NCBI GenBank assembly: GCA_028876395.1 | Contig: JAGWRX010000038.1 | Location: 1 to 62,165 of the forward strand | Origin: Acidobacteriota bacterium | GTDB taxonomy: Bacteria > Acidobacteriota > Terriglobia > Terriglobales > Acidobacteriaceae | Reading direction: 5' to 3' | DNA length: 62,165 nt | Shown here: positions 24,165-32,306 of the stretch, piece by piece | How positions within the stretch are numbered: the stretch's first letter is position 1 | How the letters are laid out: the number at the start of each line of letters is the position of its first letter | Made by a program: the position numbers and the translations under genes | The notes under the pieces: model-generated | Database searches by the model: none | The model's input: the letters and a program-made list of their open reading frames with translations, nothing else | Told to the model about the DNA's origin: nothing

Positions 24165-25310
24165 TCATGCGCCCTGCAGCACGTGAAGCGATGGCGCGCG
24201 TTTCATTGCCTGTGCAGGCTCCACATAGCCCCGCGGAACGTAGGAGCAGCACGGCTCCTGCGCAAATGCATTCCCCGTCAGCGCGTACGCGCGCGCCCGC
24301 GATCCTCCGCAAATTTGTTTGAACTCGCATGCGCCGCACTTGCCTTCGAGTCTGTCCGCGTCTCGCAACGCAAGAAACAAGGGCGACTCGCGATAGATGG
24401 TGGCCAGTGCCTGATGGCGGATGTTGCCCGCCGAAACGGGCAGAAATCCGCTGGGGAAAACCTCGCCTGTATGCGAGATGAAGACAAAACCCTTGCCGTC
24501 ATTGAGTCCACGCGGCGCGCGGCCGATGGAATCGGCCACCCTCTCGTGCGTGGAGTCCAGGCTTCCGGCCCTGCGGGCTGCGGCGCGCTGCTGCAGCAGA
24601 AAGCGACGGTAATGCTGCGCCTCAGTTGTTTTAATGTCGAACGGGGCCGTCCTGGAGAGGCCGTGAAGCTTTGCAAAAATCTCCTCGAACTCATCGGCGT
24701 TCAATAGATCATTCAGCTTGCCGCGGCCGGTGGGAACGAGGAAGAATACGCTCCATAAAGTGATTTTCAAGCGTGCAACCAATGCCACGATGTCGTCGAT
24801 TTCACCAATGTTTCTGCGGCTGAAAGTTGTATTGATCTGTACGGGGAGCCCCGCCTCGTTGGCCCAGCGGATCGCATCGAGCGTGCGAGCAAACGAGCCC
24901 GACATTCCGCGGAACCCATCGTGCGTCTCAGCGCTCGCGCCGTCCATGCTGACGGCAAGCCGCGCCAGCCCGGCATCCTTGAGGCGGAAGACAATCTCCC
25001 TGGTCAGCAACGGCGTGGCGCTCGGCGTGAGGGATACGCGCACCCCCGCCTGGCGGGCGTAGTCGATCAGTTCAAAGAGATCGGGCCGCTTGATCGGGTC
25101 GCCTCCGGTGAGCACGAAGACGGGCACGCGCAGGGTGGCGATTTGCCCGATGAGCTGCTTGCCTTCCTCTGTGCTCAACTCCATGGGATGACGCTCTGGC
25201 TGTGCTGATGCCCGGCAATGAACGCAGGCGAGGTCGCAGGCCTGCGTCACTTCCCAGATTGCGATAAATGGGCGCTCATCAAAATCGGTCGTATTGATCT
25301 GCGGGTTCAT
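24165..25310 (-). CDS. Radical SAM/SPASM protein related to AhbD and NirJ (haem-modifying type)
   Basis: The 381-residue protein has the radical SAM cluster motif C25-x3-C29-x2-C32 (CDLACVHC), the SAM-contacting TGGDPIKRPDL, and a C-terminal SPASM region with CGACEFKQICGG and a CC pair for auxiliary clusters. This resembles AhbD/NirJ and the related TIGR04053-type group, which act on porphyrin propionates or on unknown substrates. There is no ribosome site before ATG 25310. The NO-island palindrome is centred 42.5 nt upstream of that ATG, which is where an activator would sit if the message is leaderless. It is divergent from the Crp/Fnr regulator. A role in making haem for the NO enzymes is plausible but unproven. 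Confidence 0.82.
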   Translation of the reverse strand: MNPQINTTDFDERPFIAIWEVTQACDLACVHCRASAQPERHPMELSTEEGKQLIGQIATLRVPVFVLTGGDPIKRPDLFELIDYARQAGVRVSLTPSATPLLTREIVFRLKDAGLARLAVSMDGASAETHDGFRGMSGSFARTLDAIRWANEAGLPVQINTTFSRRNIGEIDDIVALVARLKITLWSVFFLVPTGRGKLNDLLNADEFEEIFAKLHGLSRTAPFDIKTTEAQHYRRFLLQQRAAARRAGSLDSTHERVADSIGRAPRGLNDGKGFVFISHTGEVFPSGFLPVSAGNIRHQALATIYRESPLFLALRDADRLEGKCGACEFKQICGGSRARAYALTGNAFAQEPCCSYVPRGYVEPAQAMKRAPSLHVLQGA

Positions 25311-25345
25311 AGCACGATGGAACCGCAGTGGAGTCGCCCCGCGCA

Positions 25346-25359
25346 GTGACTAAAGTCGC
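25346..25359. promoter_or_regulatory. NO-island palindrome, site A (radical SAM / regulator divergent promoter)
   Basis: The element is GTGAC-TAAA-GTCGC. It is identical over 14 nt to site C, and the identity continues a few bases each side. It lies 42.5 nt (centre) upstream of the radical SAM ATG on the minus strand and 24.5 nt upstream of the regulator's GTG on the plus strand. This geometry predicts activation of the first and autorepression of the second. Confidence 0.7.
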
Positions 25360-25364
25360 GCTGA

Positions 25365-25370
25365 TACAAT
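25365..25370 (+). promoter_or_regulatory. -10 element TACAAT of the Crp/Fnr regulator, leaderless
   Basis: TACAAT ends 7 nt before GTG 25377, so the predicted transcription start coincides with the start codon. No ribosome site exists, which fits a leaderless mRNA. No -35 hexamer is visible; site A occupies that position. Confidence 0.55.
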
Positions 25371-25376
25371 TTTGGC

Positions 25377-26081
25377 GTGAGTGCTGAGCGCATCGACCTT
25401 GCCGGAGTTTTGCAGAAGACGGGCCTGCTCTCCAGTCTGACGCCGCCCGAAGTGCAACTGCTGGCCACCCGAACCGTCCGCAAGCTATTCAAAGCCGGAG
25501 AGTTGCTGTTCTGCGAAGGCGAGCCGTGCAGCGGCTTGCATATTGTTGCGCAGGGCAAGGTTCGCATCTTCAAAACCTCCATGAGCGGGCGGGAGCAGGT
25601 GCTTGCGGTGGAGGGACCGGGCAGCTCCATTGCCGAATTGCCGGTCTTCGACGGCGGCCCTTATCCCGCATCGGTGGTGGCGATTGAGGATTCAGAGATT
25701 GCCTTCATATCGCGTCGCGACTTTCACGCTTACTGCATGGAGCATCCTGATGTGGCGCTGAAAGTGCTCGCCGTGGTGGGCGGGCGGCTGCGCCGGCTCG
25801 TGGGAATCATCGAGGAACTCTCCTTCACCACGATTCGCCAGCGGCTGGTCTCCACATTGCTCAAGATCGCACAGGCTGAGGGAAAGAAGACCGCGCACGG
25901 CGTGGAATTCCTTCTCCCTTACAGTCATCAGGAGATCGCCAATCAGCTTGGCACCGTGCGCGAGCTGATTTCACGCAACCTGATGCGCCTGCAGGCGGAA
26001 GGCCTGCTTGAAGTGGATGCGCGGCACATCGTGATCAAGAACATGAGCGGGCTTACCGCTCTGCTGGAAACATCCGCCTGA
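25377..26081 (+). CDS. Crp/Fnr family transcription regulator, probable NO/redox sensor of the island
   Basis: The 234-residue protein has a cyclic-nucleotide-binding-like beta-roll (residues about 15-130), a long dimer helix and a C-terminal winged helix. The recognition helix reads GTVRELISRNLMRL: Arg195, Glu196 and Arg200 reproduce the R-E-x-x-x-R that reads GTGA in Crp proteins, unlike the V-E-x-x-x-R of Fnr. There is no N-terminal Cys cluster, so it is not an Fnr-type Fe-S sensor. Cys46, Cys51 and Cys120 are present. Haem- or NO-sensing Dnr/NnrR/HcpR-type regulators share this plan. All surrounding genes belong to NO defence and carry the GTGAC element. The start GTG 25377 is supported by the leaderless promoter. 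Confidence 0.88.
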   Translation: MSAERIDLAGVLQKTGLLSSLTPPEVQLLATRTVRKLFKAGELLFCEGEPCSGLHIVAQGKVRIFKTSMSGREQVLAVEGPGSSIAELPVFDGGPYPASVVAIEDSEIAFISRRDFHAYCMEHPDVALKVLAVVGGRLRRLVGIIEELSFTTIRQRLVSTLLKIAQAEGKKTAHGVEFLLPYSHQEIANQLGTVRELISRNLMRLQAEGLLEVDARHIVIKNMSGLTALLETSA

Positions 26082-26157
26082 TTCCTCGCCCGCGCCGCAG
26101 TTCACAATGAAGACGAAAGAACCGCCTGCCCGGGCGCGTCCCGGTGCGTGAAACCAT

Positions 26158-26171
26158 GTGACTAAAGTCCC
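26158..26171. promoter_or_regulatory. NO-island palindrome, site B (norZ promoter)
   Basis: The element is GTGAC-TAAA-GTCCC. A -10-like TACTGT at 26195-26200 predicts a start near 26207, placing the site centre at about -42, the class II activator position. No -35 is evident. The leader of about 44 nt then carries GAGGG before the norZ ATG. Confidence 0.7.
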
Positions 26172-26250
26172 TGCGTGGCGCTTGTTCTCCCCCCTACTGT
26201 GACAACAGCAGCGGGCAGGTAGCATTCTCCTCTGCAAAGCGAGGGAAGCA

Positions 26251-28545
26251 ATGTCATACAAGCGTTATTGGCTTGTTCTAGCCATCGTCATCATAGGGTC
26301 ATTTGCCGTGCTGGGAGGAGTGGGGCGGAAGATGATCAGTCAGGCTCCTCCAATCCCGGATGTCTACACCACGGACGGGCAACTTCTTTTCACGGGCTCT
26401 TCCATCACCGACGGCCAGGGCGTCTGGCAGTCCATCGGCGGCCAGGAGATCGGCACGGTCTGGGGGCACGGGGCCTACGTCGCGCCCGACTGGAGTGCGG
26501 ATTGGCTGCATCGCGAGTCTGGCATTCTGCTGGATCGCTGGGCTCAGAGGGAAGGCGCGGCCAACTTTGCAGCGCTCAATTCAGATCAGCAGGCCGTGCT
26601 GCAGGCGCGCCTGGTCCGCGAGATGCGCACCAACACATATGACGCGGCGACGAACCGGGTTGTCATCAGCAGCGATCGCGCCGCAGCCTACCGGCAGCTT
26701 GCGGATTATTATGCAGGCGTCTTCGCGAACGGCCGCAAGGAATACGCCATCCCGCAGGGAGCGCTCACCGACACGGCCCGGCAGAAGCAGCTTGCCAACT
26801 TCTTCTGGTGGACTTCGTGGGCGGCAAGCACAGAACGCCCGGGCTCCACAGTCACATTTACAAACAACTGGCCGCATGAGCCGCTGGTCGCAAACGAAGC
26901 GACGCCGGGCGCGGTCTTGTGGAGCATCGTGAGTTTTGTCGGCCTGCTCGGCGGCATCGGCGCGCTCGTCTGGTGGTACGCATCGCAGGAAAAGGAGACC
27001 GTGCACGGCCCGTATCCGGCGCGCGATCCCTTCGTCGGCATGCGGCCGACACCGTCACAGCGCGCCACGATCAAATACTTCCTCGTGGTCGTGATTCTAT
27101 GGGCCGTTCAGATTCTGATGGGCGTCATCACCGCTCACTACGGCGTGGAGGGTCAGGGCTTCTACGGCTTCCCGCTGGACCGTTACCTGCCCTACGCCAT
27201 CACGCGCACCTGGCACCTGCAACTCGCGATCTTCTGGATTGCAACATCGTGGCTGGCAACGGGCCTCTATGTCGGCCCCGCAGTCAGTGGGCACGAGCCG
27301 CGCTTCCAGCGGCTGGGCGTCAACGTGCTGTTTGTTGCGCTGGTGCTGGTTGTCGGCGGATCGCTTGCGGGCGAGTGGCTCGGCATTCAGCAGCGGCTCG
27401 GCAATCTCTGGTTCTGGTTTGGCAGCCAGGGCTTTGAGTATGTGGACCTCGGCCGCTTCTGGCAGATTCTGCTGTTTATCGGCCTGGTGTTGTGGCTTGT
27501 CCTGATGGTCGCGTCGCTCAAGCCGGCACTGCAGCGCAAGAGCGAAGATCGCTCGCTGCTGTCGCTGTTCCTGCTTTCAAGCGTCGCCATTCCGCTGTTC
27601 TATGCGGCGGGCCTGATGTACGGCCAGCGGAGCCACCTGGTCACCGCCGAATACTGGCGCTGGTGGGTGGTTCACCTCTGGGTTGAGGGATTCTTTGAGG
27701 TGTTTGCCACCGTCGTCATCGCTTTCCTCTTCACGAGGCTCAGGCTGCTGGAAATTCGCAGCGCAACGCGAACGGTACTGTTTTCGACTTCCATCTTTCT
27801 TGCCGGCGGCATCATCGGCACCTTCCATCATCTGTACTTCTCGGGATCGTCGGCCATCGTCATTTCTCTGGGCGCAATCTTCAGCGCGCTTGAAGTAGTG
27901 CCTCTGACCCTGATCGGCTACGAGGCATGGGAGAATCTGCGCCTGGCCCGGCCCACGGAAAAAGCGCCGTGGCTCGCCAACTACAAATGGCCGATCTACT
28001 TCTTTGTGGCCGTTGCGTTCTGGAATATGGTGGGCGCGGGACTCTTCGGCTTCCTTATCAACCCGCCCATCGCCCTCTATTACATGCAGGGCTTGAACCT
28101 GACGCCTGTACACGGACACACAGCGCTCTTCGGTGTCTACGGCATGCTGGGACTTGGGCTGACACTGTTTTGCCTGCGCGTTCTGCAGCCCGGCCGCCCA
28201 TGGAAGCAGGGGGTCTTGAAAACGTCGTTCTGGTGCCTCAATATCGGACTGGTCTTCATGGTCGTCCTCAGCATGCTGCCCGTAGGACTGCTGCAGGCAT
28301 GGGCTTCCATCGAGCATGGCACCTGGTACGCGCGCTCGGCGGAGTTCCTGCAATCCCCTGCGATGCAGATGTTGCGTTGGATGCGGGTTCCCGGAGACAT
28401 TGTCTTCGCTCTCGGAGCCGCGCTTCTGGGCTGGTTTGTGCTTGGATTGCTGACCGGACACTCCTTCAGCAACGAAAATCCCGAGGCCGATGACGCTTCG
28501 CTATCCGCAGGCAAACGTTCCCGGCAAACATTGGTTGCTCGCTGA
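26251..28545 (+). CDS. norZ: Quinol-dependent nitric oxide reductase (qNOR)
   Basis: This enzyme reduces 2 NO to N2O with electrons from quinol in the inner membrane. The 764-residue length and the N-terminal periplasmic extension (residues about 30-215) after one anchoring helix mark the single-subunit qNOR form. Metal ligands are visible: His322 in TWHLQL, His485 with Glu489 in VVHLWVEGFFEV, His546 and His547 in GTFHHLYF, and His641/His643 in VHGHTALFG. About 14 helices are predicted. GAGGGAAGCA precedes ATG. No nitrite or nitrate reductase gene is nearby, so detoxification is more likely than full denitrification. Promoter site B predicts activation by the adjacent Crp/Fnr regulator. Confidence 0.95.
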   Translation: MSYKRYWLVLAIVIIGSFAVLGGVGRKMISQAPPIPDVYTTDGQLLFTGSSITDGQGVWQSIGGQEIGTVWGHGAYVAPDWSADWLHRESGILLDRWAQREGAANFAALNSDQQAVLQARLVREMRTNTYDAATNRVVISSDRAAAYRQLADYYAGVFANGRKEYAIPQGALTDTARQKQLANFFWWTSWAASTERPGSTVTFTNNWPHEPLVANEATPGAVLWSIVSFVGLLGGIGALVWWYASQEKETVHGPYPARDPFVGMRPTPSQRATIKYFLVVVILWAVQILMGVITAHYGVEGQGFYGFPLDRYLPYAITRTWHLQLAIFWIATSWLATGLYVGPAVSGHEPRFQRLGVNVLFVALVLVVGGSLAGEWLGIQQRLGNLWFWFGSQGFEYVDLGRFWQILLFIGLVLWLVLMVASLKPALQRKSEDRSLLSLFLLSSVAIPLFYAAGLMYGQRSHLVTAEYWRWWVVHLWVEGFFEVFATVVIAFLFTRLRLLEIRSATRTVLFSTSIFLAGGIIGTFHHLYFSGSSAIVISLGAIFSALEVVPLTLIGYEAWENLRLARPTEKAPWLANYKWPIYFFVAVAFWNMVGAGLFGFLINPPIALYYMQGLNLTPVHGHTALFGVYGMLGLGLTLFCLRVLQPGRPWKQGVLKTSFWCLNIGLVFMVVLSMLPVGLLQAWASIEHGTWYARSAEFLQSPAMQMLRWMRVPGDIVFALGAALLGWFVLGLLTGHSFSNENPEADDASLSAGKRSRQTLVAR

Positions 28546-28555
28546 TGCAAACTTT

Positions 28556-28595
28556 GCGGACCCTCAGTCGCCTTGCACCATGGCTGAGGGTCCGC
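28556..28595 (+). terminator. Strong hairpin after norZ
   Basis: A perfect 12-bp stem, GCGGACCCTCAG with CTGAGGGTCCGC, has a 16-nt loop and is followed by a mildly T-rich TTCTC. It starts 11 nt after the norZ stop. It probably ends or attenuates norZ transcription, leaving partial read-through into the cupin gene. Confidence 0.65.
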
Positions 28596-28639
28596 TTCTC
28601 ACCGTTGCGTTGCCAGGTAGCGCGATGAAGGCAGGGCTT

Positions 28640-28954
28640 ATGAATTACGCGTTTGTTGCCAATCTTCCAGATGAAATCACCGTACCCGAGCAAGGCATTC
28701 TGAGCAGGGTAATCCACAAGGACGAGAACACGACTATCACCGCATTCGGATTCTCTGCCGGAGAAGAGCTGTCGCCCCACTCTGCTTCTACTCCCGCAAT
28801 CCTCTATTTTCTTGAGGGTGAGGCTGAGGTCCAGTTGGGAGACGAGATGAAGCACGCACAGCCCGGTACCTTTATCTACATGCCACCGATGCTCGTGCAC
28901 GGCATCTCGACAAAATCCTCCGTCAAGATGCTGCTCATTCAAATCAAGAGATGA
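28640..28954 (+). CDS. Small cupin-domain protein of the NO island
   Basis: The 104-residue protein is a single conserved barrel (cupin_2 type). GFSAGEELSPHSASTPAILYFLEGEAEVQLGD is the first cupin motif region and GTFIYMPPMLVHGI the second. Metal-ligand candidates are His in LSPHS, Glu in FLEGE and His in LVHGI. Start 28640 (MNYAFVANL) fits the usual compact family N-terminus; in-frame ATGs at 28625 and 28580 are possible, but the latter lies in the norZ terminator. It follows norZ on the same strand by 94 nt. Its function is unknown; a metal- or NO-linked small-molecule role is only suggested by context. Confidence 0.8.
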   Translation: MNYAFVANLPDEITVPEQGILSRVIHKDENTTITAFGFSAGEELSPHSASTPAILYFLEGEAEVQLGDEMKHAQPGTFIYMPPMLVHGISTKSSVKMLLIQIKR

Positions 28955-29005
28955 GCAGAAGGCGCATCATAGTGAGAGAAGAAGCAGCTCACTGGAGGGC
29001 ATTCC

Positions 29006-29368
29006 ATGATTCAACTGAGGCGTGTCTACGATCCACCAGGCGATCACGATGGGGCCAGGTTTCTGGTCGAACGCCTTTGGCCGCGAGGCGTAAAGAAGTC
29101 GGCACTCACGATGCAGGCGTGGCTGAAAGATGCGGCGCCGAGCACAGCGCTGCGGCAATGGTTCGGACACGACCCCGCGCGATGGAATGAATTCCGGAAG
29201 CGCTATTTTGCGGAATTGAGCAAGCACCCCGACGCATTGCATCCTATTCTCGACGCTGCACGGCATGGTGCGGTCACGCTGCTTTACAGTTCGCATGACA
29301 CTGAGTACAACAATGCCGTTGCGCTGAAGGAGTTCCTGGAGAGCCGGCTTCTCTCCGCGCGGCCATAG
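29006..29368 (+). CDS. DUF488 family protein (YeaO-like)
   Basis: The 120-residue protein has the family landmarks RVYDPPGDHDGARFLVERLWPRG near the N-terminus, a central WFGHDPARWNEFRKRY, and VTLLYSSHDTEYNNAVALKEFL at the end. DUF488 proteins are small alpha/beta proteins of unknown activity, with conserved basic and acidic residues around the RxxDP and RLWPRG segments. GGAGG is 7 nt before ATG. It lies 51 nt after the cupin gene in the norZ direction, so it may be in the same unit. DUF488 genes often accompany redox or metal stress genes, but no mechanism is established. Confidence 0.85.
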   Translation: MIQLRRVYDPPGDHDGARFLVERLWPRGVKKSALTMQAWLKDAAPSTALRQWFGHDPARWNEFRKRYFAELSKHPDALHPILDAARHGAVTLLYSSHDTEYNNAVALKEFLESRLLSARP

Positions 29369-29407
29369 AGCACCGGCTATGGTATTCCAGATTCAGTCGC
29401 GGCGGGG

Positions 29408-29944
29408 TCACGTATTGCGCCGCGCTTTGAATTCTCCTCCGATTTCGCCAAGAGTCTGCTGATTGAAGAGTGCAGCCGCGCGCGGAAACACAACTTCCTC
29501 TTCGATGCGGATATGTTCTTCGTACAAGCTTTGCAACTGCCCGGTGCGCAACAGCAGGCGGTTTTCGTCCTCGTCTCCCAGGCTGCCATTCGCAATCCAT
29601 TTTGCATAGAGCAGTGCCGCTTCATCGTGATGCGCAGTCGCCTCATGGTGTTCAGCCTCCAACCGCTCCACCTCTTCAGTTGTGCCAGAGGGACCGCTTG
29701 CGCGCAGCCGGGGGAAGACAGACTGCTCCTCATCTTCATTGTGGCGAGGGCCGGACTGGGCGAAATAGCGAAGCGCGGACTCGACGGCGTGCCGTTCCTC
29801 GCCGCTCAGTGCGCGGCCGCGCGCCCGCCGGCAAACCTGGAACAGGATGCCGAGGAAACTTTCAATCCTGCGATGGCAATCCTTCAGCATCCCGATGGGA
29901 TCGTCAAAGCCGCTGTCAGGTTTTGCGCCGATGACTACTGGCAT
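29408..29944 (-). CDS. Hemerythrin HHE-domain protein
   Basis: The 178-residue four-helix protein carries the di-iron ligand pattern of bacterial hemerythrins: His in LKDCHRRIE near residue 24, PRHNEDEEQSVFPRL in helix 2 (HxxxE), LEAEHHEATAHHDE in helix 3, and LYEEHIRIEEEVVFPRA in helix 4. Such domains bind O2 or NO or store iron. AAGGAG about 8 nt before ATG is clear. Upstream on the minus strand are a TACAAT -10 (30004 to 29999) and then site C, about 41-47 nt from the predicted start, so it should belong to the same regulon. It is convergent with the DUF488 gene. Confidence 0.88.
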   Translation of the reverse strand: MPVVIGAKPDSGFDDPIGMLKDCHRRIESFLGILFQVCRRARGRALSGEERHAVESALRYFAQSGPRHNEDEEQSVFPRLRASGPSGTTEEVERLEAEHHEATAHHDEAALLYAKWIANGSLGDEDENRLLLRTGQLQSLYEEHIRIEEEVVFPRAAALFNQQTLGEIGGEFKARRNT

Positions 29945-30031
29945 AAATCAGCTCCTTCGCGTCTGCCGCGCAGAACATGCCGGGCAACCGCACCAATGAT
30001 TGTATGAGACTGTGCGGAAATGGCCTGCGCA

Positions 30032-30045
30032 GTGACTAAAGTCGC
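30032..30045. promoter_or_regulatory. NO-island palindrome, site C (hemerythrin promoter)
   Basis: The element GTGAC-TAAA-GTCGC equals site A. Here it is framed by a longer inverted repeat, CCTGCGC (30024-30030) and GCGCAGG (30044-30050). The minus-strand -10 TACAAT puts the centre about 46 nt upstream of the start (about 41 with the overlapping TCATAC). Confidence 0.7.
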
Positions 30046-30159
30046 GCAGGGAGGATGCTTCTGCAATCGCCGCAAGCCCGTGGGCTGCCGAATGTTAACG
30101 GCGCAATCCATGTCCTGGCGGCGCACCGCTATACGCCGGCGCGATTTTCTCCCTGCGCG

Positions 30160-30173
30160 GTGACATAAGTTAC
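30160..30173. promoter_or_regulatory. NO-island palindrome, site D (ric-nnrS promoter)
   Basis: The element is GTGAC-ATAA-GTTAC, the most diverged copy but with better arm symmetry than the other copies. A TACGTT -10-like hexamer at 30196-30201 predicts a start near 30208 and puts the centre at about -41.5. Sites C and D lie back to back in a 275-bp divergent region. Confidence 0.68.
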
Positions 30174-30219
30174 TGTCGCGAGGCTTCGATGCCGTTACGT
30201 TGATGGTGGAGCGTGCCCT

Positions 30220-30951
30220 ATGAGCATCACCAACATGCCGCTGCGCGAGATTGCCACGGAGCTTCCCGCGGCGATTTCCATCTTCGAGCAGTTTGACATC
30301 GACCTATGCGCCTGGGGAGACAAACCCCTCAGCGAAGCGTGCGCGGAGTTGCGGCTCTCAACGGATCAGGTGCGCGAAAAGCTGGATGCATTGTCTGTTG
30401 CAGAAGGCGGCGTGCGCGACTCGGCGGGCCTTTCGCTTACCAAATTGATCCAGCGCATCGTGCGCGTGCACCATCGGCGTGTGCGGCAGGACCTGCCCGC
30501 GCTGGCGCGCATGGCGGCAAAGCTGGACAACAGGCGCTCCAGCCAGAACAGGCCCGGAGCTTCGCTTGCGCACTCCATTCAGATTCTGCACGCCGACCTG
30601 CTGGCGCATATCGAGAAGGAGGAGCAGATACTCTTTCCCTGCATTGCGGCGATGGAAGAGGAAGACGGCGTGCTTTACCATTCAGAACGCGCGTGTTTCC
30701 CCTCAGTCCGCGAGCCGATTGCTGCAATGATGAGGGAGCACGCAGCGGCCGATAGGACGATCGACGAGTTGCGTGACCGCACTGGCAACTTCGAAGCAGC
30801 CGCTGATGCCTGCTCAACGCAGCGCGCTCTCTACGGCGGCTTAAGCAACTTTGAAGCAGACCTGCGCGAGCATCTCCATCTTGAAAACGACATCTTGTTT
30901 CCGCGCACCATCACAGCCGAGCTGGAACTGCGAAATAGGAGGCAGCCATGA
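30220..30951 (+). CDS. ric: RIC-type iron-sulfur cluster repair di-iron protein (YtfE/ScdA/DnrN)
   Basis: RIC proteins repair Fe-S clusters damaged by NO or peroxide in the cytosol. The 243-residue protein has the ScdA_N/DUF542 domain in residues 1-65 (IATELPAAISIFEQFDIDLCAWGD, then EAC), followed by a hemerythrin-like bundle with VHHRRVRQDLP, LHADLLAHIEKEEQILFPCI, MREHAAADRTID and LREHLHLENDILFPR, which hold the di-iron His/Glu set. In the N-terminal domain the usual adjacent Cys pair is LCAWG, with one Cys replaced. GGTGGAG precedes ATG. It overlaps nnrS by 4 nt (ATGA) and is led by site D. Confidence 0.9.
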   Translation: MSITNMPLREIATELPAAISIFEQFDIDLCAWGDKPLSEACAELRLSTDQVREKLDALSVAEGGVRDSAGLSLTKLIQRIVRVHHRRVRQDLPALARMAAKLDNRRSSQNRPGASLAHSIQILHADLLAHIEKEEQILFPCIAAMEEEDGVLYHSERACFPSVREPIAAMMREHAAADRTIDELRDRTGNFEAAADACSTQRALYGGLSNFEADLREHLHLENDILFPRTITAELELRNRRQP

Positions 30952-32306
30952 CCACAGCAGAGAAATCCACCTCCGTGGCGCAAGGGCCCGATACATTTGT
31001 TCTTCCGATCCTGGTCCGCGAAAAACAGAAGAGCCTGATGCTGCGTGCTTGGATCATGGGCGGGCTCTTCTTTATGGCCCTGCCGGGGACACTGCTTGGC
31101 TTCTCAAACCTGATGGCGATCAGCGCAGGTCACGGCCTGGCCGCGCTGCCCGCGGCATGGCTTCAGGGTCACGGTCATGCACAGATGTTTGGCTGGATTG
31201 GCAGCTTTGTGCTCGGCATCGGCTTCTACTCCCAGCCGGGAAAGGAACGCACCGCTCTCCGGCGGCAATTCATCTGCTTCGTGCTGTGGACGCTGGGTGT
31301 GGCGTTGCGCTGGCTCGCCAGCGTCTATGGATGGCATTGGGAAATTCTGTTTCCCGTTTCTGCGGGCATGGAGCTTGTTGCAATTCTGATATTCCTGCAG
31401 GCGGCATCGCACCACAAGCTTCCAGCGCCGGCCCAGCCCCACGCGGCGAGACCGAAGATGGAGCTGTGGATGCTTTCAGTGTTGCTGGGTACGGCGGGCC
31501 TGGCGGCAGGGGTCATCTTCAATTTCGTGGAATGTGTGCATCTCGCTCTGCGTGGACAGGATCGAGCCTTTCCCCATGGCCTGGATCAGCGCTACCTTGT
31601 CCTGCTTGGATGGGGATTTCTTGCGCCCATGGTGTGGGGATTCTCCGCGCGCTGGCTGCACTCATTTCTCTCGATTCCGCGGCCCAGTGCGCCGCTGCTG
31701 AAGCTTGCGCTGGCGCTGGACATAGCCGGTGTCCTGTGCGGCGTTGCGGGCTTCGCAATTGCGGCGGCCACTCTGCTGACCGCGAGCGCGGTCGTCATCG
31801 CATTCGCAATCCAGGTTGTGCGGGCCGCGCAGGGAACTCCCAAAGTGCAGGGAATTCATCCCAGCTTTCCATTTTTTGTTCGCATTACCTATCTCTGGCT
31901 GGTGATTGCTGCCGGCATGAGCATATGGGCAGCGCTCGCTGATCAACACGGCGGCATCTGGGGAGCGTCGCGCCACGCGCTTACGGTGGGCTTTGCCGCC
32001 ACGATGGTCTTCTCCATCGGCCCGCGCATTCTGCCCCATTTTTCCGGGGTGCGCGCGCTGTTCAGCAAGCGCCTGATGCTGCTGAGCCTGCTCCTGCTGC
32101 AGATTGGATGCACGCTGCGGGTCAGCTCCGAGCCGCTTGCCTACGAGGGCATTCTGCCGTTTGCGTGGAAGACGCTGCCCATCTCGGGAATGCTTGAGCT
32201 GAGCGGGGTGATCGTGTTCGCCATCAACATTGCATTGACGCTGCTTGCCGGGAAATCTGCATTTGCGCAGACCGCCGAAAGCCAGCATGCGACGCCTGCA
32301 GCCTGA
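30948..32306 (+). CDS. nnrS: NnrS family haem-copper membrane protein
   Basis: NnrS proteins are 12-helix inner-membrane haem proteins that protect against NO, probably by limiting dinitrosyl-iron complexes. The 452-residue protein has many helices and the family segments GLAALPAAWLQGHGHAQMFGWIGSFVLGIGFY, WGFLAPMVWGFSARWL and HALTVGFAATMVFSIGPRILPHFSG, with conserved His that may bind haem and copper. The start overlaps the ric stop by 4 nt, so the two genes are translationally coupled. It is the last gene of the island; the next gene is convergent 91 nt away. Confidence 0.92.
   Translation: MTTAEKSTSVAQGPDTFVLPILVREKQKSLMLRAWIMGGLFFMALPGTLLGFSNLMAISAGHGLAALPAAWLQGHGHAQMFGWIGSFVLGIGFYSQPGKERTALRRQFICFVLWTLGVALRWLASVYGWHWEILFPVSAGMELVAILIFLQAASHHKLPAPAQPHAARPKMELWMLSVLLGTAGLAAGVIFNFVECVHLALRGQDRAFPHGLDQRYLVLLGWGFLAPMVWGFSARWLHSFLSIPRPSAPLLKLALALDIAGVLCGVAGFAIAAATLLTASAVVIAFAIQVVRAAQGTPKVQGIHPSFPFFVRITYLWLVIAAGMSIWAALADQHGGIWGASRHALTVGFAATMVFSIGPRILPHFSGVRALFSKRLMLLSLLLLQIGCTLRVSSEPLAYEGILPFAWKTLPISGMLELSGVIVFAINIALTLLAGKSAFAQTAESQHATPAA

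Follow-up and report, generated by a model that had tools for sequence, protein, structure and literature searches.

Do the short palindromes that lie between the genes of a nitric oxide (NO) defence locus in an acidobacterium make up one regulon, and is the Crp/Fnr-family protein encoded among these genes its regulator? The question is raised by a contig of 62,165 nucleotides (the window; contig C230 of a 3.85-Mb assembly), in which domain and family models applied to the open reading frames marked out an NO-defence gene cluster at 24165..32306. Acidobacteria occur in soils everywhere and in large numbers, and NO reductase genes have been found in acidobacterial strains without nitrate or nitrite reductases, a role in detoxification being suggested (PMC5900883, partial text). 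The word Crp is absent from that partial text and the words Acidobacter and Solibacter are absent from the available part of PMC1274295; among the matches listed, no title or abstract beginning described such a regulon in this phylum.

The answer to which we give a probability of about 0.87 is that the four sites, designated A to D, are operators of the product of 25377-26081 (gene crp), which would activate the NO-defence genes from class II promoters, most likely in response to NO. The argument is built on the sites, their fixed spacing, their conservation, their targets and their co-occurrence with the regulator; from these we infer binding by the regulator, the direction of control and the NO signal. 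The evidence supports the substance of the preliminary description of this locus, namely a conserved NO-defence regulon with a strict class II layout, and it yields, for direct testing, an operator together with a candidate for its regulator, a layout of the promoters and a list of targets.

The element and the genes behind it

Four copies of a 14-bp element had been reported at 25346, 26158, 30032 and 30160, and all four are present at these plus-strand coordinates, each of them intergenic:

Site A, GTGACTAAAGTCGC, 25346..25359, plus strand: between the radical SAM gene (rSAM) and crp; matrix score 24.4; kept in relatives
Site B, GTGACTAAAGTCCC, 26158..26171, plus strand: upstream of the NO reductase gene norZ; matrix score 25.1
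Site C, plus-strand letters the same as in A, 30032..30045, minus strand: serves the hemerythrin gene (minus strand); matrix score 23.1
Site D, GTGACATAAGTTAC, 30160..30173, plus strand: upstream of the iron-sulfur repair gene ric; matrix score 18.8

The reported identity of A and C is borne out by the letters. That B and D vary mainly in the right arm is true of B but not of D, which differs from A at two spacer and two right-arm positions. Written as GTGAC-N4-GTCGC, as first proposed, the element is too loose to be enriched: with up to two mismatches it matched the window 96 times against 85.8 expected, and with up to one mismatch it matched the whole genome 343 times against 656 for the reversed control. 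Once the spacer is restricted the pattern becomes specific, since GTGACHWAAGTYVC has five exact matches in the 3.85-Mb genome and its reversed control has none. All five precede genes of what we call the module (ric, norZ, rSAM, crp, a NapH-like polyferredoxin gene, hcp and others), the fifth, on contig C223, standing before a second ric gene, whose product has ScdA_N and hemerythrin domains.

A matrix derived from 86 sites of relatives, after exclusion of two loci from the window's lineage, placed sites A to D at ranks 1-4 of the window with 18.8-25.1 bits. The next place scored 7.8, in line with the earlier statement that the island holds no further copy, and in 100 first-order Markov windows the top scores had a mean of 9.2 and a maximum of 16.3. 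The relatives' sites widen the palindrome to about CA-GTGAC-TWAA-GTCAC-TG, and the element, with the window's sites, is about CA-GTGAC-TWAA-GTCRC-TG. A motif of chance or repeat-derived origin with no regulatory meaning would suit the unenriched loose ten-base pattern; it is contradicted by the matrix ranking as well as by the target enrichment, the fixed -10 offset and the conservation in other genera set out below, and we consider it extremely improbable.

The targets were assessed in 36 genomes of the same genus, the window's own included, where tblastn searches with the module proteins covered every one of the 96 distinct sites, a gene start being required within 200 nt. Seventy-three sites precede a module gene by no more than 200 nt: ric alone 28, norZ 11, rSAM with crp 11, polyferredoxin 11, rSAM alone 3, and other combinations 9. 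By the same test none of the 30 examined reversed-pattern sites (of 49) lies near a module gene, so that the genome scan proposed in the preliminary description does reveal target enrichment; orthologous promoters retain the element despite changed gene order. The expectation that hcp orthologues would carry it also held for two of the three genomes with hcp (3/36; none was found in the window's genome): a site precedes hcp in G027, where the regulator is present, and in G022, which is 65% complete and in which no regulator was found, and the third, G008, has hcp with neither regulator nor site.

The product of the polyferredoxin gene is a membrane protein which resembles NapH with a score under that model's cut-off. 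Its gene is a recurrent target within the genus, often near a hemerythrin gene (L102:1565-2668; also L103, L110, L113, L127, L199, L203, L204, L215, L217 and L221).

Promoter layout

The distance between site and promoter was analysed in 59 promoters, comprising relatives' promoters of ric, norZ, the polyferredoxin gene and the NnrS-like gene together with the window's own ric and norZ promoters, with a gap of 21-99 nt between site and gene start and after removal of sequences at least 75% alike. In 57/59 TAnnnT follows the site at a distance of 23 nt (51 promoters) or 24 nt (6); in 1000 shuffles the number with TAnnnT at that offset averaged 3.2 and never exceeded 9. The arrangement therefore fits class II activation. 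In the window the following -10 hexamers are inferred:

rSAM, TTCCAT, 25317..25322, minus strand: offset 24 from site A
crp, TACAAT, 25365..25370, plus strand: GTG start 7 nt on, leaderless
norZ, TACTGT, 26195..26200, plus strand: offset 24 from site B
hemerythrin, TCTCAT, 30004..30009, minus strand: offset 23 from site C
ric, TACGTT, 30196..30201, plus strand: offset 23 from site D

With these hexamers norZ, hemerythrin, ric and rSAM all have the site centre 41.5-42.5 nt upstream of the predicted +1, and the start codon of rSAM would stand at about +1, in a leaderless transcript. By the inferred starts these promoters thus have the class II layout, with a site near -41.5, a -10 hexamer and no -35 box. 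The preliminary description had given centres 41-47 nt upstream; their nearness to the class II position stands and the spread narrows, the hemerythrin value becoming about 41.5. For hemerythrin TACAAT at 29999-30004 (about 46.5 nt) is also possible as the -10, but TnnnAT at offset 23-24, a feature common to the rSAM promoters, was preferred to it: of 23 non-redundant promoters of rSAM and hemerythrin genes, 13 have this hexamer at offset 23 and 9 at offset 24.

The class II geometry applies to norZ, hemerythrin, ric and rSAM but not to crp, where site A overlaps the core promoter. There it takes up the spacer of the promoter and some of the -35 region, its centre being 24.5 nt before the GTG start. 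Among relatives TAnnAT at offset 6-8 is kept in 9/13 non-redundant crp promoters, and in two genomes the site is 76 and 130 nt from crp instead. From this overlap autorepression of crp is predicted, a point absent from the preliminary description.

In the proposed mechanism a dimer of the regulator would bind the palindrome, approximately CAGTGAC-TWAA-GTCACTG, at the stated distance before the transcription start, where it would occupy the place of the -35 box. Bound in this manner it would activate rSAM, norZ, the hemerythrin gene, and ric together with the NnrS-like gene, the trigger most likely being NO or NO-caused damage, and through site A it would probably limit its own synthesis.

The operators and targets could be real and the regulator nevertheless a repressor, or a sensor of another signal such as oxygen, redox state, nitrite, or heme or iron status. 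The overlap of site A with the crp core promoter would suit a repressor, no ligand is known, and among the targets in other genomes are the genes of a lactate dehydrogenase, a protoporphyrinogen oxidase and a multihaem cytochrome, which would be in keeping with redox or heme as the signal. Against it stand the 23-24 nt offset in 57/59 promoters, which is the layout of a class II activator, and the main targets, NO reductase, ric and, where present, hcp. We regard this alternative as unlikely, and activation by the crp product in response to NO is preferred.

The candidate regulator and its distribution

The 25377-26081 product belongs to the Crp/Fnr superfamily, with PF00027, PF13545 and PF00325 above cut-off. 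In CRP an Arg and a Ser bind cAMP in the pocket; at this place Pro-Ala of the window protein faces Arg-Ser of the Crp-like solved chain 4ev0, and Tyr/Phe-Pro-Ala occupies the position in 39/39 homologues (a set with two pairs from the same contig). Besides this replacement the CRP equivalog model gave 74.5 bits with a cut-off of 266, so the protein is not CRP proper. FNR senses oxygen by a [4Fe-4S] cluster with four cysteine ligands; the Fnr model gave 50.9 bits with a cut-off of 228, and only two cysteines are conserved, which sets the protein apart from FNR too. Cys51 (37/39), Cys120 (38/39) and His123 (37/39) might possibly form a metal, heme or thiol sensor, and Cys120-x2-His123 as its sensing pocket may be taken only as a lead. 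The recognition helix GTVREL[IV]SR is found in 39/39 homologues (R195, E196 and R200 in the window protein). By the Crp/Fnr recognition rule, in which R180 pairs with G3 and E181 with A6 (PMC1274295, partial text), this helix predicts GTGA, as the sites show.

Among the 36 genomes the regulator is present in 23 (E 1.5e-95 or better), the best match in the other 13 being no better than 6e-21; a scan of named genomes with the regulator as the only query gave six loci, one of them distant. Sites were found in 23/23 genomes with the regulator (93 sites) versus 3/13 without it (3 sites; Fisher 1.1e-6). Reversed-pattern matches numbered 30 in the regulator-bearing group and 19 in the other, therefore genome size does not explain the co-occurrence. 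In the 13 genomes without the regulator norZ had no match in 12 and a partial one in the last, and ric likewise had none in 12, its weak match in the remaining genome being split into three pieces. Across the 36 genomes the NO genes are gained or lost together with the regulator and the sites. For the same reason the 13 provide no test of norZ promoters minus the regulator.

The same distribution bears on the idea that a different Crp/Fnr paralogue binds the sites and the linked protein is a mere neighbour. Seven matches to the regulator, itself included, were found in the window's genome at E <=0.001, so candidates are at hand. The sites, however, follow the orthologue of the 25377-26081 protein, the 13 genomes without it retain other Crp/Fnr matches, and sites flank the regulator gene itself across genera; we hold a paralogue to be very improbable and keep the linked protein as the binder.

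In 200 genomes of the class, each at least 90% complete, a homologue of the regulator (E 1e-35 or better) was detected in 99, covering 54/79 genera. In 40 other-genus loci, chosen by hand, RTGAC-N4-GTCAY lies at most 200 nt from crp in 24; counting also the loci where it precedes a module gene brings the number to 29. Each of the five patterns used as controls (reversed, N3, N5, inside-out and rearranged) scored 0/40. In 24 promoters of other genera, selected for a site beside crp or a module gene, the A and T of the -10 stand at the same offset in 24/24 (offset 23 in 22; shuffles <=8), the first base of several hexamers being C and not T. It is conceivable, though we would rather doubt it at present, that a class-wide acidobacterial NO regulon is governed by an undescribed Crp/Fnr clade, unlike those of CRP, FNR, DNR and NnrR, with an NO pocket of its own made of Cys51, Cys120-x2-His123 and Pro-Ala. 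If so, its targets would include unstudied parts of NO defence: the TIGR04053 radical SAM protein, the NapH-like polyferredoxin and the NnrS-like protein that Pfam does not recognise.

Several observations weigh against the explanation preferred here, that sites A to D are operators of the crp product. Within the genus 23/96 sites have no nearby module gene; some of these look like random occurrences, and two exact sites inside the yjeF coding sequence (G012 and G018; L125 and L114, site 1501) were taken as false positives. Three genomes without a detected regulator carry a site (65-78% complete), and in G032 an orthologue 81% identical has no site within its 20-kb stretch. The strict element is missing near crp or a module gene in 11/40 other-genus loci. 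The rSAM and hemerythrin hexamers have no A at position 2, and a consensus scan of 25200-30300 for promoters with both -35 and -10 found 0 with 1.2 expected, a weak result.

Related systems, the gene cluster and further sites

Class II promoters of E. coli CRP have a site near -41.5 and no -35 box, and the protein has an R-E-x3-R helix and a GTGA half-site. The same centre, the missing -35 box, the helix and the half-site recur here; unlike in E. coli CRP, Pro-Ala replaces Arg-Ser, and the rSAM and crp starts are leaderless.

The closest known match is HcpR of Desulfovibrio, with HcpR1 on the CRP-like branch; these are likewise Crp/Fnr regulators of nitrosative-stress genes, whose recognition helix has R at positions 1 and 6 and E at position 2 and whose sites are TGTGA-N6-TCACA (PMC5701242, partial text). 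Compared by published description, the present system resembles them in the R, E, R helix, in the G at the third half-site position and in arm spacing, and hcp, in two genomes here, is a shared target. It differs in that A and not T precedes GTGA, C follows it, the spacer is AT-rich and G follows the right arm, and in that the core targets are norZ, ric, rSAM and polyferredoxin. HcpR and DNR proteins that sense NO by heme are marked by heme binding and by activation that depends on NO. For P. gingivalis HcpR, among these, Met68 has been noted (PMC12750200, partial text).

In Proteobacteria nor, nnrS and related genes are under the control of DNR and NnrR, which act on Crp/Fnr half-sites, the DNR site being like the FNR box TTGAT-N4-ATCAA and that of NnrR being ctTTGcg-N4-cgCAAag (PMC1274295); the sites here, GTGAC-N4-GTCRC, are set apart by their sequence. 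The NsrR and NorR regulons of NO overlap with this one in targets (ytfE/dnrN, hcp, nnrS, nor), yet the proteins belong to other families with other sites, and NorR is sigma-54-dependent (same partial text).

The genes of the cluster are as follows:

24165..25310, minus strand: rSAM, radical SAM/SPASM protein related to heme b synthase AhbD (TIGR04053 485.5 bits, cut-off 395)
25377..26081, plus strand: crp, Crp/Fnr-family regulator, proposed binder of the sites (cNMP_binding, HTH_Crp_2)
26251..28545, plus strand: norZ, NO reductase of the quinol (qNOR) type with a fused cytochrome c-like domain
28640..28954, plus strand: cupin protein (domain match)
29006..29368, plus strand: DUF488-family protein (domain match)
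29408..29944, minus strand: hemerythrin-domain protein (domain match)
30220..30951, plus strand: ric, ytfE-like iron-sulfur repair protein (ScdA_N and hemerythrin domains)
30948..32306, plus strand: membrane protein, NnrS-like at best

The norZ product matches a solved NO reductase chain at E 9e-252, and the cupin and DUF488 genes possibly belong to the norZ transcript. The ric product gave 173.8 bits with TIGR03652, under the cut-off of 204.7. The name NnrS, used for 30948..32306 in the preliminary description, is weak: some homologues are titled 'uncharacterized protein involved in response to NO', but no Pfam match was obtained up to E 10. Some homologues of the window proteins are named Acidobacteriota or Terracidiphilus, and five close relatives by DNA sequence are Acidobacteria contigs from metagenome-assembled genomes.

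The promoter element also offers a route to further NO-defence genes. Of the 23 sites away from module genes, 10 are followed in one direction by TAnnnT at offset 23 or 24; among them are the sites of G011, G030 and G017 given next, one at a multihaem cytochrome gene (G026) and one at a contig end (G033). A site with a canonical -10 precedes an L-lactate dehydrogenase gene at L072:6538-7494 (G011, scanned) and L080:12227-13246 (G004, with the same beginning), followed downstream by a cupin gene and then a second NO reductase gene, the product being 44-45% identical. At L195 (site 3014) and L213 (site 1119) a site with a -10 at offset 24 stands before look-alike genes; the L213 product (G030) was scanned and matches YwiC, the gene in G018 being its look-alike. 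In G017 (L186:1464-2981) a site with a -10 at offset 23 faces a protoporphyrinogen oxidase gene divergent from that of cytochrome bd subunit I; cydA was rejected as its target since the -10 points to the oxidase gene, which may be a link to heme.

In the window's own genome a weaker copy, GTGACTAAAGTCAT (G000:C157:28905-28918; L009; L101:8906), has a matrix score of 15.8 and lies about 200 nt before an alginate-export-like reading frame with no evident link to NO. Finally, L274:8220-9629, from a genome of another family, holds a tandem pair of Crp/Fnr genes beside ric and norZ; their products are 60% and 37% identical to the query.

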